Under the pieces are notes generated by a model. It worked only from the letters and a program-made list of their open reading frames with translations. It was not told the DNA's origin and made no database searches. The position numbers were made by a program, and so were the translations under genes. From NCBI RefSeq assembly GCF_013410775.1, contig NZ_JACCFH010000001.1, positions 3,410,001 through 3,474,000 on the forward strand: a DNA stretch of 64,000 bases, given 5' to 3'. This DNA comes from Sphaerotilus montanus (lineage in GTDB: Bacteria > Pseudomonadota > Gammaproteobacteria > Burkholderiales > Burkholderiaceae_C). Shown one piece after another: positions 1,685 to 27,992 of the stretch; within the stretch, counting starts at the first letter, position 1; each line of letters opens with the position of its first letter.

Positions 1685-3739
1685 ATGGGCATCAGTCTGC
1701 TGAGCACTGGTCAACACGCGGAGCGTGTCTTCGACGTCGTTCGCAGCGGCTTCGAGGATGGTGGCAACGACGTCGTGGCCCGCTCCTGGCGGCGCTGCCT
1801 GGACGAGTACCTGCTGCACCCGGACCGCCCGCGCGACCTGCGCTCGCTGGACGCGCAGGCCCTCGAAGACCGCCTGCAACGCATGGCGACGCTGCTCGAC
1901 AGCGCCCGCCACGAGATGTCGACGCTGTTCCAGCAGCTCGCCGACCAGGAGTCGGCGGTGGTGCTGACCGACACCGATGGCGTGATCCTGCACATGGTGG
2001 CCGCGTCCGCCTTCGCCGAGGAGATCGCGCCGATGGGCCTGCGCCCCGGCGTGGTCTGGAGCGAGACCGAGGCGGGCACCAATGGCATGGGCACCTGCCT
2101 GGCCGCGGCGTGTCCGGTGGCCGTGCGGCGCGAGGACCATTTCTACACGCAGTTCACCGGCCTGACCTGCTCGGCGGTGCCGGTCTACCACCCGTCGGGC
2201 GAGATGGTGGCGGTGCTGGACGTGTCGAGCCGCTCGTCGCTGATGCAGCAGCACCTGCTCGTGCTGCTCGGCATGACGGCGCGCATGATCGAGAACCGGC
2301 TGATCGACCAGTGCTTCCGCGACGCCTACCCGCTGCATTTCCACAGCCGCCCCGAGTTCGTCTACACGCTGCACGAGGGCCGCCTGGCGGTGTCGGACGA
2401 CGGTCGCATCCTGGCGGCCAACCGCAGCGCGCTGTTCCAGCTCGGCCTGCAGTCGGTCGCGGAGATCCGCGCGCGCCGGGTCGAGGACATCTTCCAGACC
2501 TCGCAGGACGACCTGCTGCAGCGCAGCAACCTGTCCTCGTTCCACCCGGTGGTGACCTACCGGGCGCATGCGTCGCACCGCTTCTTCGCCGTGATGCGCC
2601 GCCCCGCACAGGAGGCGGGCACCTCCCAGACCAGCCCGCCGGTCATCCAGGTGCCCGGACCTGGTCGGGTGCTGTCGACCCGTGCTGCACCCGTGCCACG
2701 TTCCTCGGGCGCAGTGGCCACCATGGGCGATCCGCAACTCGCCCGCAACCTGGCGGTGGCCCGCCGCGTGATCGCGCGCCAGACGCCGGTGCTGCTGTGC
2801 GGCGAGACGGGCTCTGGCAAGGAAGTGTTCGCCCGCGCCGTGCACGACGGCAGCCCGCACGCCGACGGCGCCTTCGTCGCGATCAACTGCGCGAGCCTGC
2901 CGGAGAGCCTGATCGAGTCCGAGCTGTTCGGCTACCGCGCCGGGGCCTTCACCGGGGCGCAGCGCAACGGCCGGCGCGGCAAGATCCTGCAGGCCGATGG
3001 CGGCACGCTCTTCCTCGACGAGATCGGCGACATGCCGCTGGAGCTGCAGGCGCGGCTGCTGCGCGTGCTGGAAGAGCGCCAGGTCACGCCGCTCGGCGCC
3101 GAGGAGACGCTGTCGGTCAACTTCCAGCTCCTCAGCGCCAGCCACCGCGACCTGCAGGAGCTGATCGCCGAGGGCCGCTTCCGCGAGGACCTGTACTACC
3201 GGCTGGCGGGGGTCGAGCTGCGCCTGCCCGCGCTGCGCGAGCGCACCGACCGCCGGGAGCTGATCCGCAGCCTGCTGGTGGCCGAGGGCGGGGTGGAGGT
3301 GGCGCTGTCCGCCGAGGCGGAACGGCTGCTGATGGCGCACCCCTGGCCGGGCAATGTGCGGCAGCTGCGGCATGTGCTGCGCTCGGCCTGTGCGCTGGCG
3401 GATGGGGACGAGGTCCGGCCGGAGCACCTGCCCAGCCTGACGCGGGGCGCCACGGTGGGCGCCTTGCCGGCACCCGCGGCGGCCGAGACGGCGCCCGAGA
3501 TGCCGGCACCGATCTTGCCTGCGAGTGTGGCGGCCACCGCCGCGGCCGAGGAAGCGGCCACCGCGGAGGCCGTGTCCCGACTCAACCCCATCCTCGCCAA
3601 CGAGCGGCAGGTGCTGATCAAGCTGCTGGAGCACCACCGCTGGAATGTGAGCAACGTCGCCAAGGCGCTCGATGTCAGCCGCAACACTCTGTACCGAAAG
3701 CTCCACAAGCTGCACATCCAGATCTCCCACGCCGACTGA
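1685..3739 (+). CDS. AcoR-type sigma-54-dependent transcriptional activator
   Basis: This is an enhancer-binding protein that would activate RNA polymerase carrying sigma-54. The 684 residues comprise an N-terminal GAF-like sensor region (about 70-220, with the AcoR-like E-A-G-T-N-G-M-G-T segment), a PAS-like stretch (about 225-320), and an AAA+ domain with Walker A G-E-T-G-S-G-K-E near residue 373 and an intact GAFTGA loop near 420. A Pro/Ala-rich linker and a C-terminal Fis-type helix-turn-helix ([17 protein letters not shown]) follow. The start at 1685 has AGGAG seven bases upstream; a GTG at 1610 is the alternative. It is the only sigma-54 activator in the window, and it sits within the C1 genes. 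Relatives regulate acetoin and quinoprotein alcohol dehydrogenase genes. The inducer is unknown, with formaldehyde or methanol as guesses. Confidence 0.92.
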
Positions 3740-4310
3740 GGGCCCTCGGTCGCGCTTCGCCTGGTGCCTGACGGGTTCGGGCCACGGCCTGTCCGAGTCG
3801 CTGGCGCTGGCCGGGCGGCTGCCGCAGGTCGATCTGTTCCTCTCGGCCGCGGGCGAGGAGGTGCTGGCGATCTACGGCATCACGCTGGCGTCGCTCAAGA
3901 CCCGATTCCGCGTGCTGCGCGACAAGAGCGCCAGCGCCACGCCGGTCGGCACGCTCTACAGCGACGTCTACCACTCGGTGGTCATCGCGCCGGCCACGAG
4001 CAACACGGTCGCCAAGTGCGCCCTCGGCCTGAGCGACACGCTGCCCACCAACATGTTCGCGCAGGCCGGCAAGCTCGGCATTCCCAGCCTCGTCTTCGCC
4101 TGCGACACCGAGCCGGTGGTCGTCACCCGCGCGCCGCACGACTGGGTGACGCTGCGCCCGCGCCGCATCGAGCTGGACAACGTCGAGCGGCTGCGCGCGA
4201 TCGACCACTGCCGCGTCGTGGCCTCGGTGGCGGAACTCGAACAGGCGCTCGATCAACGACTGCAGCAACTGGCCCTGGCATGGAACGCCCCGAGCACGTC
4301 CTCTTCCTGA
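3672..4310 (+). CDS. Flavoprotein of the AfpA/dihydromethanopterin reductase (DmrB-like) type
   Basis: The protein has the flavodoxin-like Flavoprotein-family fold, with an S-A-A-G-E-E-V segment and the FMN-binding-type [11 protein letters not shown] block followed by L-P-T-N-M-F. Related proteins in H4MPT clusters are proposed to reduce dihydromethanopterin to the active tetrahydro form. The only ATG in frame is at 3672, inside the end of the activator gene (68-bp overlap). The first ~25 residues look like read-through of the activator frame, and the conserved fold begins around 3747 at [10 protein letters not shown], where no ATG or GTG is available. The true start is therefore uncertain. 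It overlaps the next gene by 31 bp. Confidence 0.75.
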
Positions 4311-5674
4311 CCGGGCGGCTGGCGCTGCCGGCGCTGACCCGCGTGCTGACCGAGCTGGGCGCGCTGCCGTTCACCTGGGAGATCCGCGAACTCGGCCTGC
4401 AGGTGGCGGCGCTGATGACGGCCGAGATGGTCCGCCGCCGCCTGTCCACGCCGGTCGCGGCGGACCGGGTCATCGTGCCGGGCCGCTGCCGGGGCGATCT
4501 GGCGGCGCTGTCGCAGGCGCTGGGCGTGCCGGTGGAGCGCGGGCCGGAGGAGCTGAAGGACTTGCCGCGCTTCTTCCGCCGCGCCGCGAAGCCGGTCGAC
4601 CTGAGCGCCTGGCGGGTGCAGATCTTTGCCGAGATCACCGACGCGCCGCGGCTGACGATCGCGCAGGTCGTCGCCCGGGCGCAGTCGCTGCGGGCGGATG
4701 GCGCCGACGTGATCGACCTCGGGAGCCTGCCGGACACGCCGTTCCCGCACCTCGAAGACTGCGTGCAGGCGCTGAAGTCGGCGGGGCACCGCGTCAGCGT
4801 CGATTCGCAGTCGAGCGACGAGCTGCTGCGCGGCGGCCGGGCCGGGGCCGACTACCTGCTGAGCCTGACGCCGCAGACGCTGTGGATCGCTGACGAGGTG
4901 GCATCCGTGCCCGTGCTCATCGGTGCCGAGCCGGGCGACGAGGCCGGGCTGTGGGCGGCGATCGAGACGATGCAGCGAAGAGATCGCCCGTTCATGGCGG
5001 ACGCGATCCTCGACCCGATCCCGTTCGGCCTCACGCGCTCGATCGTGCGCTACCACCGGCTGCGCGAGCGCTTCCCCGACGTGGCGATCCTGATGGGCAC
5101 GGGCAACCTGTCCGAGCTGACCGAAGCCGACACCAGCGGCATCCACGCCGTGCTGCTCGGCCTGTGTGCGGAGCTGGACGTGGCGGCGATCCTGACCACG
5201 CAGGTCAGCGGCCACGCGCGCCGGGCGGTGCGCGAGGCCGATGTGGCACGGCGGATGATGCACGCGGCGGTGCAGCTCCAGACGCTGCCCAAGGGGCTGG
5301 GTGACGCGCTGATGACCGCGCACGACAAGCATCCGTGGCCTGACAGCGCCGACGAGATCGCGACCACCGCCGCGCAGGTGAAAGACCCGAACTTCCGCAT
5401 CCAGGTCTCGGCCGAGGGGCTGCACGTCTACAACCGCGACGGCGTGCGGCGCGCGACCGACGTGATGGCGCTGTGGCCCCAGCTCGGGCTGGAGGGCGAC
5501 GCCGGGCATGCGTTCTACATGGGCGCGGAGCTGGCGCGGGCCGAGATCGCCTGGCAGCTCGGCAAGCGCTATGTGCAGGACCAGCCGCTCGACTGGGGCT
5601 GCGCGGTGGAGCGGCCGCCGGACGACAAGCTGGCCTGGTGTGCGCCGGCGCCGACGAAGGGAGCCCGGCCGTGA
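4280..5674 (+). CDS. Dihydropteroate synthase-like protein of H4MPT clusters (DUF6513/TIGR00284 type)
   Basis: This 464-residue protein has an N-terminal alpha/beta region beginning [10 protein letters not shown], followed by a TIM-barrel resembling dihydropteroate synthase (A-D-V-I-D-L-G, then A-D-A-I-L-D-P-I and I-L-M-G-T-G-N-L). Archaeal and methylotroph relatives are thought to join the pterin to an arylamine in methanopterin synthesis; this is a family inference. The ATG at 4280 overlaps the flavoprotein gene, and the stop overlaps the next GTG start by four bases (GTGA), so the genes are probably translationally coupled. Confidence 0.8.
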   Translation: MERPEHVLFLTGRLALPALTRVLTELGALPFTWEIRELGLQVAALMTAEMVRRRLSTPVAADRVIVPGRCRGDLAALSQALGVPVERGPEELKDLPRFFRRAAKPVDLSAWRVQIFAEITDAPRLTIAQVVARAQSLRADGADVIDLGSLPDTPFPHLEDCVQALKSAGHRVSVDSQSSDELLRGGRAGADYLLSLTPQTLWIADEVASVPVLIGAEPGDEAGLWAAIETMQRRDRPFMADAILDPIPFGLTRSIVRYHRLRERFPDVAILMGTGNLSELTEADTSGIHAVLLGLCAELDVAAILTTQVSGHARRAVREADVARRMMHAAVQLQTLPKGLGDALMTAHDKHPWPDSADEIATTAAQVKDPNFRIQVSAEGLHVYNRDGVRRATDVMALWPQLGLEGDAGHAFYMGAELARAEIAWQLGKRYVQDQPLDWGCAVERPPDDKLAWCAPAPTKGARP

Positions 5675-8667: not shown

Positions 8668-8680
8668 GTCCGTGCCCCGG

Positions 8681-10382: not shown

Positions 10383-10500
10383 GCGCATGGCGCCATCGCA
10401 ATCAGGTTTCATGCCACGCCCGCCACGGCGTTCCAGCCTGTTCCAGCGGGCAGCTTGCTGCTGAAACGCCACACTCTGTCGCGGGTCCGGACCGTGGAAG

Positions 10501-10554
10501 GGGCTGCCGCAGCCCGGTCGGGGTGGCATGCCGATTGCCTTTGCGATCGGCATG
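10501..10554 (+). promoter_or_regulatory. fhcB start region: sigma-54-like promoter and perfect inverted repeats
   Basis: TGGCAT-N5-TTGCC at 10524-10539 matches a sigma-54 -24/-12 promoter, with the GG and GC doublets 12 bases apart. Overlapping it, CATGCCGAT (10527-10535) and ATCGGCATG (10546-10554) are perfect 9-bp arms around a 10-nt spacer, and both candidate fhcB ATGs (10528, 10552) lie in the arms. A second small inverted repeat, GGGCTG/CAGCCC, lies at 10501-10515. If the promoter is real, transcription starts near 10550 and only ATG 10552 is usable, giving an almost leaderless mRNA. Otherwise the repeat would form a hairpin hiding the start. Confidence 0.4.
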
Positions 10555-11748
10555 CGCCTTGATCCGAGCCCTGTCTGGACCTGTCCCTTCTGCCCGCTGC
10601 TGTGCGATGACCGGCCGGCGAGTGCGCCCGGCTGCGCCCTCGCCGAGGCGGGCCTGCAGGCGTGTCGGTGGCCGGTGGGCGCCGCGTGCCCGGCAGCGCG
10701 CATCGACGGCCAGCCCGCCACGCTGGAGGCGGCGCTCGCGGCGGCAGCGCAGCGCCTGGCCCGCAGCCGCCAGCCACTGATCGGCGGCTGGGGCACCGAT
10801 GTCGCTGGCGCCCGCGCGCTGACCACGCTGGCCGAGGCGACGGGTGCGTTCTGTGACGCCGCGGCCGGCGAGGCGCTCAGCCAGACCTTGCGCGTGCAGC
10901 AGGACCGCGGCGGCTACACCACCACGCTGGCCGAAGTGCGCGAACACGCCGACCTGATCGTGATGGTCGGGCGCGGAGTGCTGACACGGGCGCCGCGGCT
11001 GCTGGAGCGGGTGCTCGACGGCCGGGCCACGCCCCCGCAGATCGTCCACCTGGATGCGCCGGGGGAGCTGCCCGACACGCTCGTGCGGCTGCACCTGCTG
11101 GTGGCCGAGAAGACACCCGCAGCGGCCGAGGCCCTGGCGTCCCCGGCGCTGGCCACGCTGGCCGCACAGCTGAAGGCGGCGCGCTACGCCGTGCTGGTCT
11201 GGGAACCGGCGCAGCTCGGTGCCCACGCGGCGCTGTGCATCGAGCGCCTGATGCAGCTCCTCCAGCGGCTGAACCAGACCACCCGCGCCGCCGGCCTGCC
11301 GATCGGCGGCGCGGACGGCGCGATGACCGCGCAGTACGTCCACGCCTGGCGCACCGGCCTGCCGCTGCGCAGCCGCCACGGCCCGCGCGGGCTCGAACAC
11401 GATCCGCTGCGCTTCGGTGCCCCGCGGCTGCTGGCGGACGGCGCGGTGGATCTGCTGCTGTGGGTGGCAAGCTTTCCTGGGCAGGTGGTGGGTGGGGTGC
11501 CGGCCGCGGCCGGGTTGCCGCGCATCGTGCTGGGTTTGCCGGCGCTGGCGGCGCAGCTGGGTGACGCCCGGCACACGGTGTTCATTCCGGTGGCGACGCC
11601 GGGCGTTCACGCCGACGGGCACCTGTTCCGCGTGGACGGCGCTGTGCTGATGCCGCTGCACGCCCTGCAGCACGACGGACTTCCCGGCGTGGCGGCGGTG
11701 GTGGACACCTTGACGCAGTCCCTGGCGCCGGGGAGGGCGGCGGCATGA
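10528..11748 (+). CDS. fhcB: Formyltransferase/hydrolase complex subunit B (formylmethanofuran dehydrogenase B-like)
   Basis: FhcB is the bacterial homologue of the molybdopterin-carrying FmdB/FwdB subunit. In the Fhc complex it is thought to be structural, since bacterial Fhc makes formate without redox chemistry. The N-terminus T-C-P-F-C-P-L-L-C-D-D keeps the cysteine cluster of the family, while the protein is shorter than archaeal FwdB. Two starts are possible: ATG 10528 (406 aa, GGGG just upstream) or ATG 10552 (398 aa). Known homologues begin only a few residues before the cysteine motif, which favours 10552. The stop overlaps fhcA by four bases (ATGA). Confidence 0.88.
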   Translation: MPIAFAIGMRLDPSPVWTCPFCPLLCDDRPASAPGCALAEAGLQACRWPVGAACPAARIDGQPATLEAALAAAAQRLARSRQPLIGGWGTDVAGARALTTLAEATGAFCDAAAGEALSQTLRVQQDRGGYTTTLAEVREHADLIVMVGRGVLTRAPRLLERVLDGRATPPQIVHLDAPGELPDTLVRLHLLVAEKTPAAAEALASPALATLAAQLKAARYAVLVWEPAQLGAHAALCIERLMQLLQRLNQTTRAAGLPIGGADGAMTAQYVHAWRTGLPLRSRHGPRGLEHDPLRFGAPRLLADGAVDLLLWVASFPGQVVGGVPAAAGLPRIVLGLPALAAQLGDARHTVFIPVATPGVHADGHLFRVDGAVLMPLHALQHDGLPGVAAVVDTLTQSLAPGRAAA

Positions 11749-13406
11749 GCACGATCCGGTTGCACGGTGGCCGCCTGCACGACCCGACCAACGGCGTCGA
11801 CGGTGACGTGCGCGATCTCGTCGTCCGCGACGGGCGCATCGACCGGCTGGCGCCCGGTGAGCCAGCGGATGAATCGATCGACATCAGCGGCTGCGTCGCC
11901 ATGGCCGGCGGCATCGACCTGCACACCCACATCGGCGGCGGCAAGGTGAACCTGGCCCGGCTGCTGCTGCCCGAACACCACCGCGGCGGCGGCGATGACC
12001 CGTGTCGCCACGTCACGCCCGGCACGCGCGACACCGGCCGGCGCTACGTGCAGATGGGCTACACCGCGGCGTTCGAGCCCGCGATGGTCGCCACCAACGC
12101 CCGCCACGCCCACATGGAGATGGGCGACACCCCCATCCTCGACCACGGCGCCTACGCGATGCTCGGCAACGACGAGCTGTTCCTGCAGATGCTGGCCGAG
12201 GGCGCCCACCCGGACGAGTTCCGCGACCTGATCGGCTGGACCTTGCACGCGACCAAGGCGATGGGCGTCAAGGTCGTCAACCCGGGCGGCATCTCGGCCT
12301 TCAAGTTCAACCAGCGCCGCCTGAACGTGGACGAGCCCCACCGCCACTGGCAGGTCACGCCGCGCCAGGTCGTCCACACGCTCGCCCGCGGATTGCACGC
12401 GCTCGGTGTGCCGCACCCGCTGCACATCCACGGCAGCAACCTCGGCGCGGCCGGCAACATCGCCTCGACGCTGGAGACCATCGACGCGCTCGAAGGGCTG
12501 CCCGCGCACCTGACCCACGTCCAGTTCCACGCCTACGGCAACGAGGGGCCGAAGAAGTTCTCGTCCGCTGCGCTGGCGCTGGCGGAGGCGGTCAATGCGC
12601 GGCCACAGCTCAGCGTCGATGTCGGCCAGATCATCTTCGGCCACACGGTCACCGCCTCCGGCGACACGATGCGCCAGTTCGCCAACGCCGGGCTGGCCAA
12701 CCCGCGCAAGGCGATCTTCTCGGACATCGAGTGCGAGGCCGGCTGCGGCGTGGTGCCGTTCCGCTACCGGGAGGCGAGCTATGTGAATGCGCTGCAGTGG
12801 GCGATCGGGCTGGAGATCTTCCTGCTGGTGCGCAACCCGTGGCAGGTCGTGCTGACCACCGACCACCCGAACGGCGGCCCCTTCACCAGCTACCCGCACC
12901 TGATCCGGCTGCTGATGGACCGCTCCTTCCGCGAGGAACAATTGGCCAAGCTGCACCCCGAGGTCGCCCAGTTCAGCGCGCTGAAGTCGATCACCCGCGA
13001 GCTGACGCTGCAGGAAATCGCCATCCTGACCCGCGCCGCGCCAGCGAAGCTGCTCGGCCTGCGCGACCGCGGCCACCTGGGCGAGGGCGCGGCGGCCGAC
13101 ATCGCCGTCTACCGCGACGACGCCGACCGCGAGCGCATGTTCACCGCGCCCGAGCTGGTCTTCAAGGACGGCGTGCTCGTCTCCCGCGCTGGCCGCCTCA
13201 CCGCCGAGCCAGTCGGCGGCACGCACTTCGTCGCGCCCGACTACGACCTGTCGTTTGCCCAGACGCTGCGCCGCCGCCACGCCCGCCACGGCTCGGTCAA
13301 TCCCGACCACCTGGTCATTGGCCACGACGAGCTGTGCGCCTGCGGGCGGGGCGGGGCGCTGCTGCCGGTGGCGTGTCTGCAAGGTCAGGATCGGGGCGCG
13401 CCATGA
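11745..13406 (+). CDS. fhcA: Formyltransferase/hydrolase complex subunit A (formylmethanofuran dehydrogenase A-like)
   Basis: FhcA is an amidohydrolase-fold subunit that hydrolyses formylmethanofuran to formate and methanofuran. The 553-residue protein shows the zinc-binding [10 protein letters not shown] motif near residue 62, a later H-I-H-G-S-N-L and the catalytic-type T-T-D-H-P-N-G segment. The C-terminal beta-sandwich includes [14 protein letters not shown]. It lies in the canonical fhcBADC order, coupled on both sides by ATGA overlaps. Confidence 0.95.
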
Positions 13407-14302
13407 CGGTCCTCATCGACGACACCTTCGCCGAAGCCTTTCCGATGAAGGCGACCCGGCTGCTGATCACCGCGCACAACCTCACCTGGGCGCGCCACGC
13501 CGCCGTCGCCGCCACGGGCTTCGCCACCTCGGTGATCGCCTGCGGCTGCGAGGCGGGCATCGAGCGTGAACTGTCCGCCGACGAGACGCCCGACGGCCGG
13601 CCGGGTCTGGCGGTGCTGCTGTTCGCGATGAGCGGGAAGGAGCTGGCCAAGCAGGTCGAACGCCGGGTCGGGCAGTGTGTGCTGACCTGCCCGACCACGG
13701 CGGTGTTCGCCGGGCTGCGCGAGGGCGAGCCGATCGCGCTGGGCAAGAACCTGCGCTTCTTCGGCGACGGCTGGCAGCAGTCGAAGGTGATCGGTGGTGT
13801 GCGCTACTGGCGCGTGCCGGTGATGGACGGCGAGTTTGTGGCGCAGGAGACGACACCAGTGGTCAAGGGCGTCGGTGGCGGCAACCTGCTGTTCCTGGCG
13901 CGTGACACCGACGCCGCGCTCGCCGCGGCCGAGGCGGCGGTCACGGCGATGCGGCGGCTGCCGGACGTGATCCTGCCGTTCCCGGGTGGTGTGGTGCGCT
14001 CGGGCTCGAAGGTGGGCAGTCGGTATCCGGTGCTGATGGCGTCCACCAACGACGCCTTCTGTCCGACGCTGCGCGGGCTGGCCAAGCGCAGCGAACTCGA
14101 CGAGCGCATCGGCTGCGTGATGGAAATCGTCATCGACGGGCTGAGCGAGGCGGCGGTGGCGGAGGCCATGCGGGTCGGCATCGAGGCCGGTGTGGCGCTC
14201 GGCACCGCGGGCGGGCTGCTGAGGATCTCTGCTGGCAACTACGGCGGCAAGCTCGGGCCGTTCCACTTTCACCTGCACCACCTCTACCGGGTGACGCCAT
14301 GA
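13403..14302 (+). CDS. fhcD: Formylmethanofuran-tetrahydromethanopterin N-formyltransferase (Fhc subunit D)
   Basis: FhcD (Ftr) moves the formyl group from formyl-H4MPT to methanofuran. The 299-residue length and the motifs [38 protein letters not shown] and [11 protein letters not shown] are typical of Ftr. The start at 13403 gives an ATGA overlap with fhcA. A longer open frame upstream in the same phase is a shadow of fhcA. Confidence 0.95.
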
Positions 14303-15138
14303 GCGGCCATCGACTCACCTTGCGCCAGACGCCCGCGCTGCGGCTCGATCTGCGCGGCGTGCTGCCCGACACGCTGGCGGGCCTGTCCGTCGCGGAGGTC
14401 GAACGCCTGCCGCTGGCCTGTGGCCGCGACCTCGTGCCGCTGGCCGAGTGGTTCACGGTCGAGGCGACTCCGACCGCCGACGCTGACACCGTGGCGGCGC
14501 TGCACCTCGTCGGCGACCTGTCCCGGGTCGATCACATCGGCCACCAGATGGCGTCCGGACGGCTGCGCATCGACGGTCCGGTCGGCGATGGCCTGGGGGT
14601 GCAGATGCGCGGCGGGGTGATCCGGCTGCACGGCTCGGCGCGCGATCAGGTCGGCTGCGAGATGAGCGGCGGCGAGCTGCACATCGACGGCGACATCGGC
14701 GACTTCGCCGCGTCGACGCTGCCCGGCAGCATGGACGGCATGCGCGGCGGGCTGCTGGCGGTGTGCGGCTGTGCGGGCGACCGGCTCGCCGACCGGATGC
14801 GGCGCGGCACGGTCCTCGTCGGCGGCGCGGTCGGTGATTTCGCGGCGTCGCGGCTGGTGGCGGGCACGGTCGTGCTCGGCGGGCGCTGTGGCGTGCATCC
14901 GGCCTGGGGCATGCGCCGGGGCAGCGTGCTGTTCGCGGATCCGACGGTGGCGCCGATGTCGCTGCCCGGCTTCGTCACTGGCGGGGGCGAGATGGCCGTC
15001 GCGTGGCAACTGATGGCGCGTGACCTGGCGCGCCACACCGATTTCCCCGCGCTCGCCGACCTGCCGCGCCGCGCCGTTCACCGCCTGCGCGGGGATCTGG
15101 CGGTCGATGGCATGGGCGAGCTGCTCTTTGTCACCTGA
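14299..15138 (+). CDS. fhcC: Formyltransferase/hydrolase complex subunit C (formylmethanofuran dehydrogenase C-like)
   Basis: FhcC is the beta-helical subunit homologous to FmdC/FwdC and the C-terminal domain of glutamate synthase. From about residue 85 to 225 the 279-residue protein has repeated G-x-x-G-x-x-M-x-x-G-x-x-x-x-x-G units (for example [24 protein letters not shown]). It probably supports the complex and holds the methanofuran polyglutamate chain. It is the last fhc gene; 26 bp with an AAGGAA site separate it from the Fae paralogue. Confidence 0.93.
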
Positions 15139-15164: not shown

Positions 15165-15698
15165 ATGTCACTGCCGTACACCTTCCATGCCGGCGAAGCC
15201 ACCGTGCTGGCCGCCGAGGGCCAGTTCACCGACGCGATGCCCGAGATCCTGATCGGCCGCGTCGACGGCCCGGTCGGGCAGGCCTTCGCCAACATGATGG
15301 CGCAGAGCAAGGGCCACACCGCGATGTTCGCGATCCGCGCCTGCAACCAGCTCGTGCGCCCGGCGACCATCACCGTTCCGAAGGTCACGCTCAAGGACAT
15401 GGCCAACATCGACCTGTTCGGCGGCGTGGTCCAGAGTGCGACCGCCGATGCGGTGCTCGACTGCGTGATCGAGGGTCTGATCCCGAAGGACCTGGTCAAC
15501 GAGCTGTGCATCATCAGCCTGGTGTGGATCGACCCGCGCTGCGCCAAGGATCCGAGCCTCGACAAGCGGGACATGTACCGCACCAACTACGAGGCGACCA
15601 AGCTGGCGCTGCGGCGCGCGCTGAACCACGAGCCGACGATCGACGAGCTGATCGCCAACCGGCATGCGATCCGGCACGACATGGACGACTGGACCTGA
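15165..15698 (+). CDS. Fae paralogue (Fae2-like) lacking the catalytic His
   Basis: This 177-residue homologue of formaldehyde-activating enzyme keeps the fold (I-G-R-V-D-G-P-V-G-Q-A-F-A-N-M, I-I-S-L-V-W-I, N-Y-E-A-T-K-L-A-L-R-R-A-L). At the position of the conserved A-H-I-D-L block of Fae it has A-M-P-E-I, so the active-site His is a Met. Methylotrophs often carry such Fae-like proteins of unproven function; a sensing or carrier role is possible. It is probably cotranscribed with fhcBADC. Confidence 0.85.
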   Translation: MSLPYTFHAGEATVLAAEGQFTDAMPEILIGRVDGPVGQAFANMMAQSKGHTAMFAIRACNQLVRPATITVPKVTLKDMANIDLFGGVVQSATADAVLDCVIEGLIPKDLVNELCIISLVWIDPRCAKDPSLDKRDMYRTNYEATKLALRRALNHEPTIDELIANRHAIRHDMDDWT

Positions 15699-15739: not shown

Positions 15740-16414
15740 ATGCTGCAGATTGCCCTTTTCGACCTCGACCACACGCTGATCCCGTTCGACACCGGACTCG
15801 CCTGGACCGATTTCCTGATCGCCCGAGGTGTGTTCGACGACGCCGTGCGCGTGACCTACCTCGACCACTGCCGCCAGTACGCCGCCGGCACGCTCGACAT
15901 CCGCGAGATGCAGCGCGCCAACGTCGGCGCGTTGCGCGAGGTGCCGCCGGCCGACGTGGCGCGCTGGATCGACGACTTCCGCGAACACCTCCGCCCGCGC
16001 GTCCCCGCGGCGACCCGTGCGCTGGTGGATGGCCACTGCGCGCGCGGCGACCTCTGCGCCATCGTCACCGCGACGCCGCGCTTCCTGGCCGAGCCGCTGG
16101 CGGCGCTGTTCGAGGTGCCGCACCTGCTGGCGAGCGAGTCCGCCGTCGATGCCCGCGGTCACCGGACGGGCGAGGTCGAGGGCGAGCCTTGTTACCGCGC
16201 CCACAAGATCGACCATGTGCAGCGCTGGCTGGCCGCGCGCGGGCACTCGCTGCAGACGGTGGGGCGGAGCTGGTTCTACTCGGATTCGGCGAATGACCTG
16301 CCGCTGCTGCAGGTGGTCAGCGATCCGGTGGCGGTGGCGCCGGATGCGCGGCTGCGGGCGCATGCGCTGGCGCAGGGCTGGCCGGTGATCGATCCGTCAC
16401 CGCACTGCGGCTGA
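15740..16414 (+). CDS. HAD superfamily hydrolase, SerB-like (subfamily IB)
   Basis: This 224-residue cytoplasmic phosphatase-like protein has HAD motif I F-D-L-D-H-T-L-I at residues 6-13, motif II I-V-T-A-T-P near 107, and motif III/IV Y-S-D-S-A-N-D-L-P-L-L near 180. Members dephosphorylate phosphoserine, histidinol phosphate or similar small metabolites; the substrate cannot be read from sequence. It follows fae2 by 41 bp. Its last 18 bp overlap the convergent AAA/nuclease gene. Confidence 0.85.
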   Translation: MLQIALFDLDHTLIPFDTGLAWTDFLIARGVFDDAVRVTYLDHCRQYAAGTLDIREMQRANVGALREVPPADVARWIDDFREHLRPRVPAATRALVDGHCARGDLCAIVTATPRFLAEPLAALFEVPHLLASESAVDARGHRTGEVEGEPCYRAHKIDHVQRWLAARGHSLQTVGRSWFYSDSANDLPLLQVVSDPVAVAPDARLRAHALAQGWPVIDPSPHCG

Positions 16415-18010
16415 GTCGCGCGTGGCCGGGATCGTTTCCACCTCGAACCCGACCACGTTCCGGTCCTCGCGGCTGAACTCGACACCGATCAGGTGGATCG
16501 GTTCGCCGCGGTCACGGTATTTCCCGGCGTAGTCGCGGTCCTTGAGCTGCTGCAGCGCGTGGCCCTGGGGTGTCAGCTCGACGACCTTGAACTCGAACAG
16601 CCAGACCACGCCGCCGAACAGCACCGCCATGTCGATGCGGCCCTTGTTCGTCGTGTCCTCCACGCGGACATCGAGCCCGAGCGCGGCGAAGTGGCTGTAG
16701 AAGATGCTCGCGTAATAGCCTTCGAAGCCCGACAGCGCGTTGCGGCGGTACCAGTCGTGCGGGATGCTGGCGAAGAAGGCGTGGAACAGCGGGCGCAGCG
16801 CCGGCACATCCCCCGCCAGCAGCACGCGGTAGAGGCGGCTGATCTGCGGCTCGGGGATCTCGGCACTGCCCGACAGGTGGCGCAGCAGGCTGTCGTTCAA
16901 GCTGGCCTGGACCTCCAGATTGGGGTATTTCAGCGTCAGCTCGCGCCGCCCCGGGATCTCCCAGACGCTGTCGATCGTCAGGTAGCCGGCCTGGAACAGC
17001 AGCGCCTCGGGCTGCAGCGTCTCGACATCGAAGGTGGACAGCAGCGTGTCGGTGGCGACGATGCGGCCCAGGTCCGGGGTGAACGGGCGCCGGGCGGCGA
17101 GCAGGTCGACCAGGAACGTGGGCGTGCCGGTCTCGAACCAGTAGGGGCGGAATTGCCGGTTGCGGAACAGCAGCAGCAGGTCGAAGGGGTTGTAGACCGA
17201 GGTGCCGAGCCAGTTGTAGCCGTTGTACCAGCGGCGGATCTCCTCGCGGTCCAGCCCCGGCAGCTCCGGCGCGAACACGGTGTCCACGTCGTCGTCGGTG
17301 TAGCCGCACAGTGCGCTGTAGCGGGGGTCCAGCGTCAGGTCGGTCAGGTTGTTCAGGCCCGAGAACAGGCTGACCTTGCTGAACTTGCTCACCCCCGTCA
17401 GGAACACGAACTTCAGGTGCTCGTCGGTGTCCTTGAGCACCGCGTACACGTCCTTCAGCCCCTCGCGCATCTGGCGCGCCACCACCGGGTCGGTGATGTT
17501 GTCGAGGATGGGCTTGTCGTACTCGTCGATCAGCACCACCGCCCGCTCGCCGCGGCTGCGGTGCGCCTGCCGGATCAGGTCGGCGAAGTTGCCGGGCAGG
17601 TCATCGTCGGGCAGCCCGGCAGGCAGCGGCAGGCCGAGTGACTCCCGGTTGACACGCAGGTTGTCGCGGATGCGCTGGGCCAGCCCGGTGCCCGCGGGCG
17701 ACACCCCACCCGAAAAGCTCAGGCGGATCACCGGGTAGCGGCGCGACCAGTCCCAGCGCGACTCGGCCGCCAGGCCCTCGAACAGTGGCCGATTCCCTTC
17801 GAACAGCTCCTTGAACGTGTCGATGAGCAGGCTCTTGCCGAAGCGGCGCGGGCGGCTCAGGAAATAGTGTGTCCCGGACTCGATCAGGTCCAGGATCAGC
17901 CCGGTCTTGTCCACGTAGTAACAATGTTCGCTGCGCAGCTTGGCGAGGCTTTGCAGCCCGACGGGCAGCTTGAGGCGAGGCAGTGCAGCGGCGGCGGGGG
18001 CATTCATCAC
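16397..18010 (-). CDS. AAA-ATPase-like protein with C-terminal PD-(D/E)XK nuclease domain
   Basis: This 537-residue protein has the AAA-ATPase_like plus DUF1703-type nuclease architecture. The N-terminus has Y-Y-V-D-K-T-G and the family-specific P-loop S-R-P-R-R-F-G-K-S-L-L near residue 55, then V-V-L-I-D-E-Y-D-K-P (Walker B) near 165. The C-terminal G-R-I-D-M-A-V followed by L-F-E-F-K supplies a PD-(D/E)XK-type active site. These proteins are widespread, often multicopy, and of unknown role (defence or mobile-DNA links are suggested for some). It stands alone between the C1 genes and the xox cluster on the opposite strand. ATG 18007 is an equal alternative start. Confidence 0.85.
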   Translation of the reverse strand: MMNAPAAAALPRLKLPVGLQSLAKLRSEHCYYVDKTGLILDLIESGTHYFLSRPRRFGKSLLIDTFKELFEGNRPLFEGLAAESRWDWSRRYPVIRLSFSGGVSPAGTGLAQRIRDNLRVNRESLGLPLPAGLPDDDLPGNFADLIRQAHRSRGERAVVLIDEYDKPILDNITDPVVARQMREGLKDVYAVLKDTDEHLKFVFLTGVSKFSKVSLFSGLNNLTDLTLDPRYSALCGYTDDDVDTVFAPELPGLDREEIRRWYNGYNWLGTSVYNPFDLLLLFRNRQFRPYWFETGTPTFLVDLLAARRPFTPDLGRIVATDTLLSTFDVETLQPEALLFQAGYLTIDSVWEIPGRRELTLKYPNLEVQASLNDSLLRHLSGSAEIPEPQISRLYRVLLAGDVPALRPLFHAFFASIPHDWYRRNALSGFEGYYASIFYSHFAALGLDVRVEDTTNKGRIDMAVLFGGVVWLFEFKVVELTPQGHALQQLKDRDYAGKYRDRGEPIHLIGVEFSREDRNVVGFEVETIPATRDSAAVR

Positions 18011-19392: not shown

Positions 19393-19411
19393 GGCGAGTC
19401 CTTCGGTGGGT

Positions 19412-20425: not shown

Positions 20426-20428
20426 CGC

Positions 20429-20977: not shown

Positions 20978-21981
20978 GGCGCGGATGTCCCGATGAAGGC
21001 GCCGAAGCCGCGCGGGTTGCGGCCGGTGGCGAGGGTGGTGATCAGGCGACCGCTGGCGGCGTCGAGCACCTGGACGTTGTCGTCCATCCAGTTCACGACG
21101 ACGACCTGTGCGCCCCGGGCGGCGATGCCCTCGGGGTAGCCGAAGCCGGTCAGGGTCTGCAGCGGGCGCAGCGTGTCGGGGTCGTAGACGCTGACGGTGT
21201 CGTCGTGCTGGTTGGTGATGTAGAGCCGCCGGCCCTGGTCAGCGAGCGCCGCGCCATAGGGGGCCTTGCCGACGGGCAGCGTGGCGATCACGGCGTGGGT
21301 GCGGGTGTCGATGACCGAGACGTTGTCGCTGAGCACGTTGAGCGCATAGAGCCGCGCGCGGGCGGTGTCGAGCAGCAGCGCGAACGGGTGCTCGCCGACC
21401 GGCACCCGCGCCACCACCTCGGCCCGCGCGACATCGACCAGCGCGACGCGGTTGTCATCCCGCTCCGCCACCCATGCCTGCGAGCCGTCAGGAAGCGCGG
21501 CCACGCCCGCGGGTGCCCGGCCGAGCGGCACGCGGGCGAGGGTCTGGCGGCTGGCGCTGTCGATCACCTGCAGCGCGGCGCCGTACCAGTCCACGACGAA
21601 GAGCCGCTGGCCGTCGGCGCTGGCGTCGAGGCCGACCGTGCCCTGGCCGCCGGGGAAGGTGGCGGTGACCTGCTGGCGCTGCACGTCGATGACCGACAGG
21701 CTGTGGTCCTCGGCGTTGGCGACGAACACCTCGCCGCGCCGGCTGGCGGCGACCACGCCCGCCGGCGCCTTCCCGACCGGCACCGTGGCGACGACGCGCA
21801 GCGCATCGAGGTCGATCACGGTCACGTCGTGGCTGCCCTGGTTGGTGATGTAGGCGCAGGTGCAGGCGTGACCCGCCGCCGCAGCCGCTGCGGTTGCCGG
21901 GCCGGCGAGCAACAGCGCACAGGCGGCGGCGATCAAGGCACGCGGCTTGCACCGTGGAGCAACCTGTCCCAGGTGTTCCAC
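20974..21981 (-). CDS. YVTN/YncE-type beta-propeller protein of the quinoprotein cluster
   Basis: This is an exported seven-bladed beta-propeller of about 335 residues with repeated V-x-V-I-D-x-x-x-x-x-V-x-A-x-x-P-V-G units, for example V-T-V-I-D-L-D-A-L-R-V-V-A and V-S-V-I-D-T-R-T-H-A-V-I-A. A hydrophobic leader (A-L-I-A-A-A-C-A-L-L-L-A-G-P) precedes A-C-T-C-A. There is no ATG near the leader: GTG at 21981 is the best start, with a TTG inside the leader as alternative, so the N-terminus is uncertain. Such propellers accompany PQQ dehydrogenases. The gene diverges from the DUF3280 gene with only 18 bp between start codons. Confidence 0.85.
   Translation of the reverse strand: MEHLGQVAPRCKPRALIAAACALLLAGPATAAAAAAGHACTCAYITNQGSHDVTVIDLDALRVVATVPVGKAPAGVVAASRRGEVFVANAEDHSLSVIDVQRQQVTATFPGGQGTVGLDASADGQRLFVVDWYGAALQVIDSASRQTLARVPLGRAPAGVAALPDGSQAWVAERDDNRVALVDVARAEVVARVPVGEHPFALLLDTARARLYALNVLSDNVSVIDTRTHAVIATLPVGKAPYGAALADQGRRLYITNQHDDTVSVYDPDTLRPLQTLTGFGYPEGIAARGAQVVVVNWMDDNVQVLDAASGRLITTLATGRNPRGFGAFIGTSAP
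21936..21951 (+). promoter_or_regulatory. Strong sigma-54 (-24/-12) promoter candidate for the DUF3280 gene
   Basis: AGGCAC-N5-TTGCA differs from the sigma-54 consensus TGGCAC-N5-TTGCW at only its first base; the GG (21937-21938) and GC (21949-21950) doublets are 12 bases apart. Transcription would start near 21962, giving a ~38-base leader containing AGGAG (about 21988-21992) before the ATG at 22000. The element lies inside the 5' coding end of the divergent beta-propeller gene, which explains how the pair manages with almost no intergenic DNA. Confidence 0.5.
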
Positions 21982-21999
21982 GCCCAGAAGGAGTCCGCC

Positions 22000-22563: not shown

Positions 22564-22580
22564 CTGCCACCGTCCCGGCG

Positions 22581-23812: not shown

Positions 23813-23824
23813 GGAAACTCCCGT

Positions 23825-24577
23825 TCACGGACGCACAGGCGGGGTCCGCGTCAACGCGGCCGAGGCCGCGGGTGTGTAGGCGGGTCGCGTGGCGCCATCG
23901 ATCCAGAGCGCCTCCTCGATCAGCGGGCTGCTGCCGCCTTCGGGGCCGGCCGTGGTGCGGATCGAGACCACGGTGCCGGGGACCGCGGTCGACAGCAGGA
24001 ACACGTACTGCTTGCGCGCCAGCTGCTCGAAGCGCGCCCGGTTCGGGTCGTCGAGGTAGGGCTGGATCACGATTTCCTGGCCGGCGAGGGTCTGGCCGCG
24101 GTAGCTGAACCGGACGTCGCGGACCTGTGCGCCCTGGTAGAGCGCCATGCGGATGCGCTTGCGGAAGTAGTGGGCCTGGCCCTTGGTGAGGCGCTGCATC
24201 TCGCGGATGTCGTGCTCCAGGAAGTACAGCGTGACCGGGTTGCCCTGGGCCTGTTCGAGATCGGGCAGCGTGACGCGCCGCTCGCCGGTGAGGAACGCTC
24301 CGGTGGCGGCGCAGCACTGGCCGTCGGCTTGCCGGGTCAGCTGGATGCCGACCTGGTCCTCGAACGGCGGTTCGAGCGTGCCGCTGCGCTGGAAGCGGTA
24401 GGTGAGGGTGGTCGGGGGGCGGACCTGCTGCAGCTGGTTCCCCATCAGCAGCAGGCGCTCGGCGGCCGAGTAGTCGGGCGGTGGCGGCGCGGTCTGGGCC
24501 AGCACGGGCAGGGTCGAGAGCGCGGCCACCAGGCCGAGGGGCGCCAGCAGCCGGTGCAGGAGGGTCGGACGGTTCAT
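23825..24577 (-). CDS. Exported protein of the xox cluster, function unknown
   Basis: This 250-residue protein has a signal peptide (L-G-L-V-A-A-L-S-T-L-P-V-L-A-Q) and no motif I can name. It contains a C-C pair (G-Q-C-C-A-A-T-G) and beta-rich sequence with T-L-Y-F-L-E-H-D-I-R-E-M, suggesting an outer-membrane-lipid-carrier-like or simple beta protein; that is only an impression. GGAGAAG upstream of the ATG at 24577 sets the start. It lies 41 bp after xoxJ and 12 bp before the next small gene, so it is very likely in the xoxFGJ operon. Confidence 0.75.
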   Translation of the reverse strand: MNRPTLLHRLLAPLGLVAALSTLPVLAQTAPPPPDYSAAERLLLMGNQLQQVRPPTTLTYRFQRSGTLEPPFEDQVGIQLTRQADGQCCAATGAFLTGERRVTLPDLEQAQGNPVTLYFLEHDIREMQRLTKGQAHYFRKRIRMALYQGAQVRDVRFSYRGQTLAGQEIVIQPYLDDPNRARFEQLARKQYVFLLSTAVPGTVVSIRTTAGPEGGSSPLIEEALWIDGATRPAYTPAASAALTRTPPVRP

Positions 24578-24618
24578 GCGGGCTTCTCCGGGGAACACGG
24601 GGGAGGCACTGGGCGGGC

Positions 24619-25485
24619 TCAGCGCTGGGCAGTGCTGGCGCCGCCTTCGTCGACCAGCGGCACCCCGAAGTCGTTCAGGATCGCCCGGATCTCGGGCCGG
24701 TGCGTGTCGATCACCTGCTCGATCTGCTGCTTCCATTCGCGCTCGCCGTAGCGCACGCCCATGGCCATCTCGTAGTCGAAGCGCACGCCGGGTTCGGACT
24801 TCATCGGCACCACCACGAGCTGCGGCGCGCTGACGCGCTTGGCAAAGAAGCCGGCGATCGGGCCCCAGACGATGGCCACGTCGATCTTGCCGCTGGCGAG
24901 TTCCTTCTCCAGCAGCTCGCCGGGGTACTGGGCCGGATCGGCGTTGAGCATCTGGTAGGGCACGCCCTGCTCGACGAGCTGGTGCTTGTTCAGCCACTCG
25001 GAGGCGGGCGAGCGGTCGTAGATGCCGATGCGCAACTGCTTCAGCCGTTCGGGGCCGAGGCCGAGGAAGTCGAGCGTCGAATGCACCTCGTCGAGCCCCT
25101 TGCCCTTCGGGTAGACCAGCGCGTAGGTCGAGCGGTAGTAGGGCTTGGTGACGGAGACCTGGTCGAAGCCGACCGGCACGCCCATCACGATGTCGCAGCG
25201 GAAGTCCTCGCCCGGCAGCTTGTAGCGCAGCGTGTTGCGGATGAAGGCCATCCGGGCGGGGAAGGCGTAGTAGGTGACCGGCAGGCCGAGCGCGCGGCCG
25301 AACAGCTCGGCCAGCTTGTTCTCGATGCCTTCGCCCGCCACGTTCGAGAACGGCAGGTTGTTCGGGTCCTGGCAGACCCGCAGGGCCTTGCGCTCGCTGT
25401 CCTGGGCGCTGGCGCTCAGGGGGGCCACCGCCAAGGCGGCCAGCAAGAGGGCCGCGGCGGATGCGGTGGCGGTCTTGGCGGACAT
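24619..25485 (-). CDS. xoxJ: XoxJ-type periplasmic binding protein
   Basis: XoxJ/MxaJ proteins resemble ABC-transporter solute-binding proteins but have no transporter partner; XoxJ is thought to help mature or activate XoxF. The 288 residues comprise a signal peptide (to about A-S-A), then L-R-V-C-Q-D-P-N-N-L-P-F-S-N, the family start, followed by R-C-D-I-V-M-G-V-P and V-A-I-V-W-G-P-I-A-G-F-F. The gene follows xoxG by two bases and precedes an unknown exported protein. Confidence 0.92.
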   Translation of the reverse strand: MSAKTATASAAALLLAALAVAPLSASAQDSERKALRVCQDPNNLPFSNVAGEGIENKLAELFGRALGLPVTYYAFPARMAFIRNTLRYKLPGEDFRCDIVMGVPVGFDQVSVTKPYYRSTYALVYPKGKGLDEVHSTLDFLGLGPERLKQLRIGIYDRSPASEWLNKHQLVEQGVPYQMLNADPAQYPGELLEKELASGKIDVAIVWGPIAGFFAKRVSAPQLVVVPMKSEPGVRFDYEMAMGVRYGEREWKQQIEQVIDTHRPEIRAILNDFGVPLVDEGGASTAQR

Positions 25486-25487
25486 GG

Positions 25488-25892
25488 CTACTTGATCTCC
25501 TCGACCTTGGCCCGCGTGATGGCACCGTCGGAGCGGCCCTTCAGGTAGGCGTAGAGCTGGTTGATGTTGTCCATCACCACGGGACTGTTGCCGAAGCTCT
25601 GCATGCCTTTGTCGAGGCGGCCGCTGGTGACGGTGGTGATGAATTCCGCCTTGGTCAGCGTCTTGAGGCTGTTGACCAGCGACGGGCCGACCATGCCTTC
25701 CTGGTTGGCACCGTGGCAGCGGTCGCAGGCGGCGGCCCGCCAGGCACGGAAGCCTTTCATGGTTTCGGCATCGACCTTGTAGCCCTCCTGCACGGTGTAG
25801 AGCGGGGCAGCGGGCTTGTCCTGGGCCGAGACGGCGGTGCAGGTCAGCACGAGGGCGGCGCAGAGGGCCGGGATCAGGGCGGGTCTTCTCAC
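25488..25892 (-). CDS. xoxG: XoxG-type c-type cytochrome
   Basis: This small periplasmic cytochrome c is the expected electron acceptor of XoxF. The 134 residues include a signal peptide (P-A-L-I-P-A-L-C-A-A-L-V-L-T-C-T-A-V-S-A) and one haem site, C-D-R-C-H, at residues 56-60, with Met residues downstream (E-G-M-V-G-P, K-G-M-Q-S-F) that could be the sixth ligand. GTG at 25892 is chosen because GGAGA lies 8 bases upstream and the signal peptide begins there; the longer frame to 26012 adds an unlikely leader. A hairpin separates it from xoxF. Confidence 0.9.
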   Translation of the reverse strand: MRRPALIPALCAALVLTCTAVSAQDKPAAPLYTVQEGYKVDAETMKGFRAWRAAACDRCHGANQEGMVGPSLVNSLKTLTKAEFITTVTSGRLDKGMQSFGNSPVVMDNINQLYAYLKGRSDGAITRAKVEEIK

Positions 25893-25980
25893 GGGAATGG
25901 TCTCCAAAGGCCAGGGGTGGGATGCGGTGGTGCAAAAAGGGCCGGGGCGACTGTTCCAGGATCGCTCCGGCCTTGGACAA

Positions 25981-26023
25981 GGTGAACGGCGCATGGTTCT
26001 CCCACCCTTCAACGCCGTTCACC
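25981..26023 (-). promoter_or_regulatory. Intercistronic 11-bp hairpin between xoxF and xoxG
   Basis: GGTGAACGGCG (25981-25991) and CGCCGTTCACC (26013-26023) are perfect 11-bp arms around a 21-nt loop, beginning 28 bases after the xoxF stop on the transcribed strand. No T-run follows, so it is more likely a processing or 3'-end stabilising element (or partial terminator) that keeps xoxF mRNA more abundant than the downstream xoxGJ part. Confidence 0.5.
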
Positions 26024-26051
26024 GCTCGCTGGTACTGGTGATTTCCCTTGC

Positions 26052-27872
26052 TCAGTTGGGCAGCGCGAAGATGGTCAGCGAACCACCGAGTTCGGTGTAC
26101 TGGTTCAGCTCCTTGTAGCCGCCCACGGCGCCCAGGCCGTCGGTGTCCTTCTCCAGACCGGCGGCCATGCCGATGCCGGCCCAGCCGCCGATGCCGGAGA
26201 ACACGCCCATGTACTGCTTGCCCTTGTGCTCATAGGTGAACACGTTGCCGATGATCCCGGACGGGGTCTTGAACTTGAACAGCTCCTTGTTGATGTCCTT
26301 GGCATCGACGCACTTCAGGTAGCCCTCCAGCGTGCCGTAGCAGCTCAGGCCGCCCGCGGTGTTGAGCGAGCCGCTCCACACCGAGAACTTCTCGGCCTTG
26401 CTCTGCACGATCTTGCCGGTGCCGGCGTCCCAGGTGATGTAGTTGCCCATGCCGCCATGGCTGCCCGGCGTGGGGTACATCGACAGCGTGGCGCCCACAT
26501 ACGGCTGGCCCGCGGTGTACTCGACCTTGAACGGCTCGTAGTCCATGCAGACGTGGTTCGTCGGCACGTAGAACAGGCCGGTGTTCGGGTCGAACGAGGC
26601 GGGTTGCTGGTCCTTCGAGCCGAGGGCCGCCGGGCAGATGCCCTTGGTGTTGACGTCCGGCCCGTTCTGCGCCGTCGAGTACTTGGACACCACCTGCGGC
26701 CGGCCGGTCTTCATGTCCACATGGGTGGCCCAGTTGACCTTCGGGTCGTACTTCTCGGCCACCAGCAGCGCGCCGGTCACGCGGTCGAGCGTGTAGCCGA
26801 AGCCGTTGCGGTCGAAGTGGACCAGTGCCTTGGTCGGCTTGCCCTTGACCGGGATGTCGGCCAGGATCATCTCGTTGATGCCGTCGAAGTCCCACTCGTC
26901 GAACGGCGTCATCTGGTAGACCCAGTTGACCTTGCCCGTGTCCACGTCACGCGACCAGATCGACATCGACCACTTGTTGTCGCCCGGGCGCTGCGAGGGG
27001 TTCCAGGTCGACGGGTTGCCGGTGCCGTAGTAGACGGCGTTGGTCGCCTTGTCGTAGCTGTACCAGCCCCAGGTCGTGCCGCCACCGATCTTCCACTGGT
27101 CGTCCTTCCAAGTCTTGAGCGAGGAGTTCGCGCCGACCGGCGTGACCTTGCCGTCTGCCCAGGTGGTGGACTTGACCGGGTCCATCAGCATCTCGCTGTC
27201 GGGGCCGACCGAGTAGCCCTTCCAGACCTGCTTGCCGGTGTTGATGTCGTAGGCGGCCAGGAAGCCGCGCACGCCCCATTCGCCGCCGGAGATGCCGGTG
27301 ATGACCTTGTCCTTGAAGACGTGGGGGGCGTTGGTGTTGACGGCGCCGAGCTTGGGGTCGCCGTTCTTGACCGTCCAGAGCACCTTGCCGGACTTGGCGT
27401 CCAGGGCGACGAGGTTGGAGTCGGCCTGCTGCAGGAAGACCTTGCCTTCGGCGTAGGCCAGCCCGCGGTTGACGGTGTCGCAGCACATCTGCGGGATCAC
27501 GGCCGGATCCTGCTTGGGCTCGTGCTTCCAGAGGATCTTCTGGGTTTCGAGGTCGATCGCGAACACCTTGTTCGGGAACGGCGAGTGCAGGTACATCGTG
27601 CCGTCGATGACCAGCGGCGAGCCTTCATGGCCGCGCAGCACACCGGTCGAGAAGGTCCAGGCGACCTGCATCTTCCCGACGTTGCCCTTGTGGATCTGGT
27701 TGAGCTTGCTGTAGCGCTGGTTGAACATGTCGCCCGCCTGCATCGCCCAGTTCTTGGAGTTGGCGATGTTTTTCTCGACGTCGGCGTTGGCCAAGGCGAG
27801 GGTGGGCAGACTCATCAGTGCCACGCAGGCACCACGTACCAGCCAGTTGCTCCGTTCGACGGATGCGTTCAT
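26052..27872 (-). CDS. xoxF: Lanthanide-dependent PQQ methanol dehydrogenase, XoxF type
   Basis: This periplasmic quinoprotein oxidises methanol (and possibly formaldehyde) and passes electrons to XoxG. The 606 residues comprise a signal peptide (to about L-A-L-A-N-A) and an eight-bladed propeller. The vicinal Cys pair is at 130-131, metal-ligand-type Glu 198 in G-G-E-W-G and Asn 286 in G-T-G-N-P, and D-E-W-D-F-D at 325-330. Asp 328 is the catalytic base, and Asp 330 replaces the Ala of calcium-type MxaF; this is the hallmark of lanthanide binding. AAGGAGA precedes the ATG. No mxaI-like small subunit gene is nearby. It is the first gene of the xoxFGJ operon behind a sigma-54-type promoter. 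Confidence 0.97.
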
Positions 27873-27977
27873 GGAATGTCTCCTTGCTCACGATCACGGG
27901 TGGTCTTCTGACGGGGGGACATGGAGTCGCCGGCAACCACCGGAACCTGACGCGACCTGTCACACACCCTCTTTTTC

Positions 27978-27992
27978 GCAACTACCGTGCCC
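27978..27992 (-). promoter_or_regulatory. Strong sigma-54 (-24/-12) promoter candidate for xoxF
   Basis: On the minus strand this reads GGGCAC-N5-TTGC, differing from TGGCAC-N5-TTGC only at the first base, with the GG and GC doublets 12 bases apart. Transcription would start near 27966, giving a ~94-base leader before xoxF. The 483-bp gap 27873-28355 also holds the 28020-28051 inverted repeat, and I see no gene in it. Confidence 0.55.

Follow-up and report, generated by a model that had tools for sequence, protein, structure and literature searches.

The stretch of Sphaerotilus montanus DNA analysed here (the window; 64,000 nucleotides, contig NZ_JACCFH010000001.1, positions 3,410,001 to 3,474,000) holds an island of one-carbon (C1) genes together with a gene for a sigma-54 activator of the AcoR/DhaR type. 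Comparison with related genomes indicates that this activator probably controls the gene folB and the fhc operon and, in one clade, also the methanol dehydrogenase gene xoxF. The ancestral core of the regulon was probably folB plus fhc, with xoxF joining later. An earlier note on this DNA had proposed sigma-54 control of both the xox and the tetrahydromethanopterin (H4MPT) genes by one GAF-domain activator; sequence comparison supported the H4MPT half of this proposal, and the xoxF half in the source clade. The letters and coordinates of the -24/-12 elements given there were confirmed on re-reading of the sequence. The features on which the argument turns are:

977..1489, minus strand: folB-domain gene of the dihydroneopterin aldolase family, a proposed target that is transcribed divergently to the activator (TIGR00526 above cut-off, TIGR00525 just under)
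1531..1546, minus strand: folB -24/-12 element, GGGCGCACATCTTGCT (comparison in family genomes)
1685..3739, plus strand: AcoR/DhaR-type sigma-54 activator, proposed regulator (Pfam, NCBIfam, translation, orthologues, tree)
10468..10482, plus strand: enhancer-like palindrome GCCACACTCTGTCGC, located 56 bp ahead of the -24 element of fhcB (sequence comparison)
10524..10539, plus strand: fhcB -24/-12 element, TGGCATGCCGATTGCC (comparison of genomes, alignment)
10552..11748, plus strand: fhcB, with its ATG about 3 nt past the predicted transcription start (TIGR03129 match, below cut-off)
11745..13406, plus strand: fhcA of the amidohydrolase family, following fhcB in the presumed operon (PF07969)
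13403..14302, plus strand: fhcD formyltransferase (TIGR03119 above cut-off)
14299..15138, plus strand: fhcC (GXGXG; PF01493)
15165..15698, plus strand: fae paralogue, downstream of fhcC (PF08714)

The Pfam domains and the translation bore out the earlier description of an activator with an intact GAFTGA motif. The protein consists of an N-terminal GAF domain (38.5 bits, above cut-off), an AAA+ domain containing GAFTGA (PF00158, Sigma54_activat, 214 bits) and a C-terminal Fis-type helix-turn-helix (HTH; PF02954, 45.7 bits, above cut-off). A PAS_4 match fell below its cut-off, and no receiver domain was seen (no Response_reg match in Pfam at E 0.001). GAFTGA and the Fis-type HTH place it among sigma-54 enhancer-binding proteins, and the GAF domain with no receiver among those of the AcoR/DhaR type. 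DhaR and AcoR have the same layout of GAF, AAA+ and Fis HTH, and their targets are the dihydroxyacetone and acetoin genes. The NCBIfam DhaR equivalog model aligned over residues 28-586 of the window protein, but its score of 272.2 lay under the cut-off of 551. Orthologues with 63-100% identity were found in 14 of the 120 genomes of the family sample, which includes the source genome (G000), and GAFTGA was kept in every one. A single further genome, G104, had a fragment only (73% identity), and the next full-length matches in the family reached at most 46%. In the tree the 14 orthologues formed one group (98/97), with a protein of Paraburkholderia sp. NMBU_R16 as its sister (100/99). The source genome also has rpoN, with one match to the RpoN DNA-binding domain.

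The -24/-12 element noted earlier at fhcB was kept in all seven discovery genomes, where the best upstream site scored at least 20.2 on ad hoc weights set in this analysis; a score of 20 was reached by 0.2% of 600-bp background stretches. It was also present in 7 of 9 further loci (18.7-20.2), six of these seven having the palindrome as well. G005, which has fhcB and no activator orthologue, showed neither element nor palindrome, and the fhcB locus of G104 was unreadable, its match starting at residue 167. When the upstream regions of 14 genomes were aligned, GGCA at -24 and TTGC at -12 were the only runs of invariant columns. Thirteen of the 14 had a GNNACA-N3-TGTNNC palindrome, at a distance of 56-148 bp upstream of -24. 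An in-frame ATG followed the predicted transcription start by 3-4 nt in 8 of the 14 by script; in five more the script did not decide the start and the ATG was seen there by eye, and G059 differs. Because leaders in other families are mostly longer, the nearly leaderless fhcB message appears limited to one family, and is likely a feature of the source's family only. Taken from these comparisons, it is very likely that fhcB carries a sigma-54 promoter and likely that the neighbouring activator drives it.

In six relatives (L242, L256, L259, L169, L171, L245) a further common stretch, CATCACGATTCGTGCCA or near it, was seen by eye ahead of the fhcB palindrome; it is degenerate in the window, at about 10400-10440.

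The folB gene was divergent from the activator in all 14 activator-bearing genomes of the family, and its best upstream site scored 17.5-21.0 in each of them, 41 to 110 bp upstream. Among 300-bp background stretches, 7.5% reached 17.5 and 1.9% reached 19. The best folB site of G176, from another family, scored 19.2, and the element was absent from Paraburkholderia (11.3) and G237 (13.6). The element had earlier been called weak; the site stands, and the label underrated it. A sigma-54 promoter at folB is thus very likely from the sequences compared. The activator as its driver is less sure than for fhcB: no good enhancer palindrome was found at folB in the window or in the relatives' intervals between folB and activator, and the link between the two genes therefore rests on adjacency. 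Short recurring stretches, GATTCTGG and GGGTGAAAC-like, also occur between folB and the activator (window 1490-1684 and relatives).

Comparison of genomes was taken as the deciding evidence because consensus matches in the window were not in excess of shuffles. Matches to YTGGCACGNNNNTTGCW with up to 3 mismatches numbered 52 in the 64-kb window and 70.7 in shuffles. Five sites in the window scored at least 20 on our weights: fhcB, DUF3280, xoxF, 57828(-) and 2698(-), the last within the activator gene; background in the source genome was 4 in 240 kb, or about one expected per 64 kb. Genome-wide, KGGCAY-N5-TTGC occurred 48 times and the reversed pattern 11 times. The window has two of the 48, one at fhcB and the other at xoxF. 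Several of the 30 loci inspected are followed by genes that, as read from translations, resemble classical sigma-54 targets (amtB-, ntrC- and dctA-like). The GG-N10-GC core is present in four of the five elements noted earlier (xoxF, DUF3280, fhcB and folB) and missing from the fae element. The core in a TGGCAY/TTGC context kept in relatives, which we used to define a sigma-54 promoter, was found at fhcB and folB, and at xoxF in part of the relatives. The window count fits the reading that all matches are chance in a 70% GC genome, yet the fhcB and folB elements recur at like positions across genera, against background rates per genome of 0.2% for fhcB (score 20 within 600 bp) and 7.5% for folB (17.5 within 300 bp), and chance as a general explanation is scarcely credible.

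Recurrence of this kind was specific to few genes. We traced 35 reading frames of the window in the relatives' fetched loci, some of the frames being uncertain and the DUF3280 query start being wrong there. Among frames seen in at least four genomes, folB (14/14) and fhcB (7/7) most often had sites of at least 17.5, followed by o8621 (4/8, none at 19), xoxF (6/14) and o6812 (2/6), with fae1 (1/14), the activator (1/14) and xoxJ (0/14) at the low end. The palindrome at fhcB scored 20.5; the highest score at any of the other 46 KGGCAY-N5-TTGC matches in the source genome was 17.5. A strict enhancer pattern, MACACWSTGTKSC, occurred at 15 places in 9 genomes, seven of them at fhcB or xoxF, and its reverse at 3; these counts are descriptive because the pattern was written after the sites were seen. 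It was not found in the source genome. By our own reading no gene was common among the eight other places, and these were rejected as regulon members.

The xox cluster of the window comprises:

24619..25485, minus strand: xoxJ-like periplasmic binding protein (TIGR03871 above cut-off)
25488..25892, minus strand: xoxG-like cytochrome c (PF13442; TIGR03874 below cut-off)
26052..27872, minus strand: xoxF, pyrroloquinoline quinone (PQQ) methanol dehydrogenase with WDFDG motif (TIGR03075 above cut-off; motif)
27977..27992, minus strand: xoxF -24/-12 element, GGGCACGGTAGTTGCG (aligned in 6 genomes; like distance in G058 and G101)
28255..28270, minus strand: xoxF enhancer-like site, AACACTTTGCTCCGAA, an imperfect palindrome (comparison with relatives)

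The window protein is a PQQ alcohol dehydrogenase with WDxDG, the combination by which XoxF was recognised, and its WDFDG, with the second Asp, presumably marks a lanthanide-type methanol dehydrogenase. Of the 17 family genomes with XoxF, 8 had the noted xoxF element, at about 100-140 bp, with scores of 16.2-20.2 and a AACACTYTGYKCCRAA-like site further upstream. Seven of these genomes (G000, G058, G119, G046, G078, G091, G116) make up exactly one clade of the activator tree (99/98); the eighth is G101. The full palindrome was found in four of the eight (G119, G091, G116, G101). Among the other seven activator genomes, G081 has a site of 18.4 nearer the gene and G074 one of 20.9 before a fae1 that precedes xoxF. 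G013 and G092, with XoxF and no activator, had no xoxF element. The element was found separately in G174 (21.2) and G383 (19.7), two genomes that belong to another family and have the activator next to the xox cluster; it was not found in G261, the third genome with that arrangement. In the source clade a sigma-54 promoter at xoxF is likely, and the neighbouring activator is a less sure candidate for its driver than at fhcB.

Three side observations concern the xox genes. Four genomes have in common, by eye, a CAGGGTYTNNACCTAG-like stretch upstream of xoxF, perhaps a second control site (L165, L167, L182, L175). In G074, G053 and G059 fae1 directly precedes xoxF (L177, L184, L185). The source genome encodes another PQQ alcohol dehydrogenase, and about 110 bp before its matched coding region lies a good -24/-12 element, TGGCACATTTGTTGCC (L199:1501-1516; G000:C1:199015).

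Of the 120 family genomes, 17 had XoxF (at least 79% identity) and 16 had FhcB (E to 1e-20). XoxF was present in all 14 activator genomes and in 3 of the 106 without the activator (Fisher p 1e-15), and FhcB in 13 of the 14 (Fisher p 9e-14), neither value being corrected for relatedness. Each of the 14 has fae1, the DUF6513-DUF447-mfnB genes or both close to the activator. Among 14 activator-bearing genomes from other families whose activator region was retrieved, the activator stood beside H4MPT genes in 10, beside the xox cluster in three (G174, G383 and G261, from two other families; L347, L348, L350) and beside neither in one (G268).

In a wider sample of 399 genomes of the order, FhcB (E to 1e-25) was matched in 37 and the activator (E to 1e-150) in 15, with scores computed for no more than the top few candidates of each genome. 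We examined 28 fhcB loci out of the 35 other genomes with a match. Sites scored 16.3-21.7 in nine activator-positive loci and 0-20.1 in 19 negative ones (p 5e-4). Three negatives reached at least 19.4; G288 and G176 proved to carry the activator, and G191 shares its genus with a positive. Among the 11 positives then known, six reached at least 19.4 and two 17.6, with G237, G149 and G199 near background at 16.3-17.4. Missed activators were rechecked among the high-scoring outliers only, and the other 16 negatives reach 16.3 at most; because these low-scoring negatives were not rechecked, the separation is biased toward the proposed regulation. The palindrome score did not separate the distant groups of the order (p 0.20); a variant palindrome, GTGACAG-N-CTGTCAC, occurs in G459 and partly in others.

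Several results weigh against control of all three promoters by the neighbouring activator. PF00158 matched 18 proteins of the source genome, 14 of them strongly, which leaves 13 other strong sigma-54 activators. A looser pattern, CACACNSTGTSNC, occurred 7 times in the source genome and its reverse 13 times, and only the fhcB copy adjoins a recognised C1 gene. The fhcB palindrome was not found in G081. G101 has both fhcB and xoxF elements, and no activator was found in its assembly, which is 93% complete. At xoxF, the element was missing from 9 of the 17 XoxF genomes, seven of these nine having the activator; G091 and G119 scored just 16.2, as do 13-20% of random 160-200 bp stretches; TGC replaces TGT in the palindrome of the window, G058, G046 and G078; and the window site, with a palindrome score of 15, does not rise above many other sites.

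The number of other activators, the want of a clear palindrome at folB and the case of G101 would fit genuine sigma-54 promoters that are driven, some or all of them, by another enhancer-binding protein, the neighbour controlling something else. We regard this as quite improbable, since the activator keeps its place by H4MPT or xox genes in every one of the 14 family genomes and in 13 of the 14 from other families, three genomes without the activator lack the elements (G005 at fhcB; G013 and G092 at xoxF), and the fhcB palindrome stands apart from those at the 46 other matches, as the xoxF site by its score does not. At xoxF a further explanation has to be weighed, namely that a two-component system is the main control, as in model methylotrophs, and that the -24/-12 match is minor or idle. 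Lanthanide-type alcohol dehydrogenases are reportedly controlled by kinase/regulator systems such as MxaY and PedS2/PedR2, from which the window activator differs in having no receiver-domain match. A response regulator and kinase are encoded 0.8 kb upstream of xoxF (28717-31175), and the xoxF element is missing from half of the genomes with the activator (7 of 14). The pair was nevertheless matched at just 27-36% in the relatives' fetched loci, with no match in the xoxF locus of G058, whereas the xoxF element and enhancer-like site are kept throughout a clade and G174 and G383 again show -24/-12 elements at xoxF. Two-component control as the principal mechanism therefore appears rather unlikely.

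Under the proposed control of folB, fhc and xoxF by the neighbouring activator, the protein would be an enhancer-binding protein dedicated to C1 metabolism. Its GAF/PAS part would sense a signal from C1 metabolism; our guesses are formaldehyde, methanol or a C1 unit bound to a carrier. The Fis-type HTH would bind the GNNACA-N3-TGTNNC palindromes upstream of fhcB and the related sites upstream of xoxF, and the AAA+ domain, using ATP, would open sigma-54 RNA polymerase at three -24/-12 promoters: that of folB, which supplies pterin for H4MPT; that of the fhc operon, which takes formaldehyde on to formate; and, in one clade, that of xoxF. Binding, activation and signal, and at folB the identity of the activator, are what we infer from the elements, palindrome, synteny and co-occurrence described above. 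A broader version is more tentative: several families of the order may share a dedicated C1-sensing enhancer-binding protein, a switch distinct from two-component control, that couples folB, fhc (nearly leaderless in the source family) and, by repeated recruitment in separate lineages, xoxF.

To our knowledge, little is known of the regulation of XoxF and the H4MPT pathway outside model methylotrophs, and the part of the literature surveyed yielded no earlier description of xoxF or H4MPT genes under sigma-54 control. The analysis supplies exactly placed predicted promoters, along with candidates for the regulator and its binding site, that are open to direct testing. If the proposal is true, the activator is a candidate C1 biosensor, and xoxF offers a case of a gene joining an existing regulon in one clade. 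MmoR is a sigma-54 activator of the soluble methane monooxygenase operon in methanotrophs, encoded beside its C1 genes, with a -24/-12 promoter and, in Methylocella, a GAF domain; it resembles the window activator in these respects and differs in its target, which is not H4MPT or XoxF genes (PMC5874634). BmoR of Thauera butanivorans is likewise an alcohol-responsive sigma-54 enhancer-binding protein for an oxidation operon, but answers to C4-C6 linear and C3-C5 branched alcohols and targets an alkane monooxygenase (PMC6366067). In Methylosinus, sigma-54 has been placed at nitrogen genes (PMC12403871). A 2026 account of Sphaerotilus reports growth on methanol, with xoxF expression up 15-fold on average in two strains, and the available part of it names no regulator of xoxF (PMC13300288).

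Two elements proposed as promoters in the earlier note were rejected:

326..342, plus strand: fae match (-12 doublet without GC; no conserved site at fae1)
21936..21951, plus strand: DUF3280 match, AGGCACGCGGCTTGCA (over the 5' end of an opposite-strand YVTN frame)

The DUF3280 match had the top score of the window (22.0), and the element was present in neither of the two orthologues found in the searched loci; no DUF3280 orthologue was found in the xox locus of G058. Of the three elements that had been rated good, fhcB was thus conserved, xoxF was conserved in part of the relatives and DUF3280 was not. A site at fae1 was found in 1 of 14 genomes, the good one being that of G074. For the DUF3280 and fae matches the chance explanation stands. 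Palindromes about 300 bp upstream of fae1, recurring in relatives, were read as coding sequence of the upstream gene, and autoregulation of the activator was set aside with a -24/-12 site in 1 of 14 genomes. Within the island, a gene for an AAA-ATPase-like / PD-(D/E)XK protein (window 16397-18010) separates the fhc part from the xox part. Elsewhere in the source genome, a paralogous activator (44%) is divergent from a gene for a small, apparently exported protein that has TGGCACAGTGATTGC upstream (L300 and L002; G000:C1:4605561-4609900).

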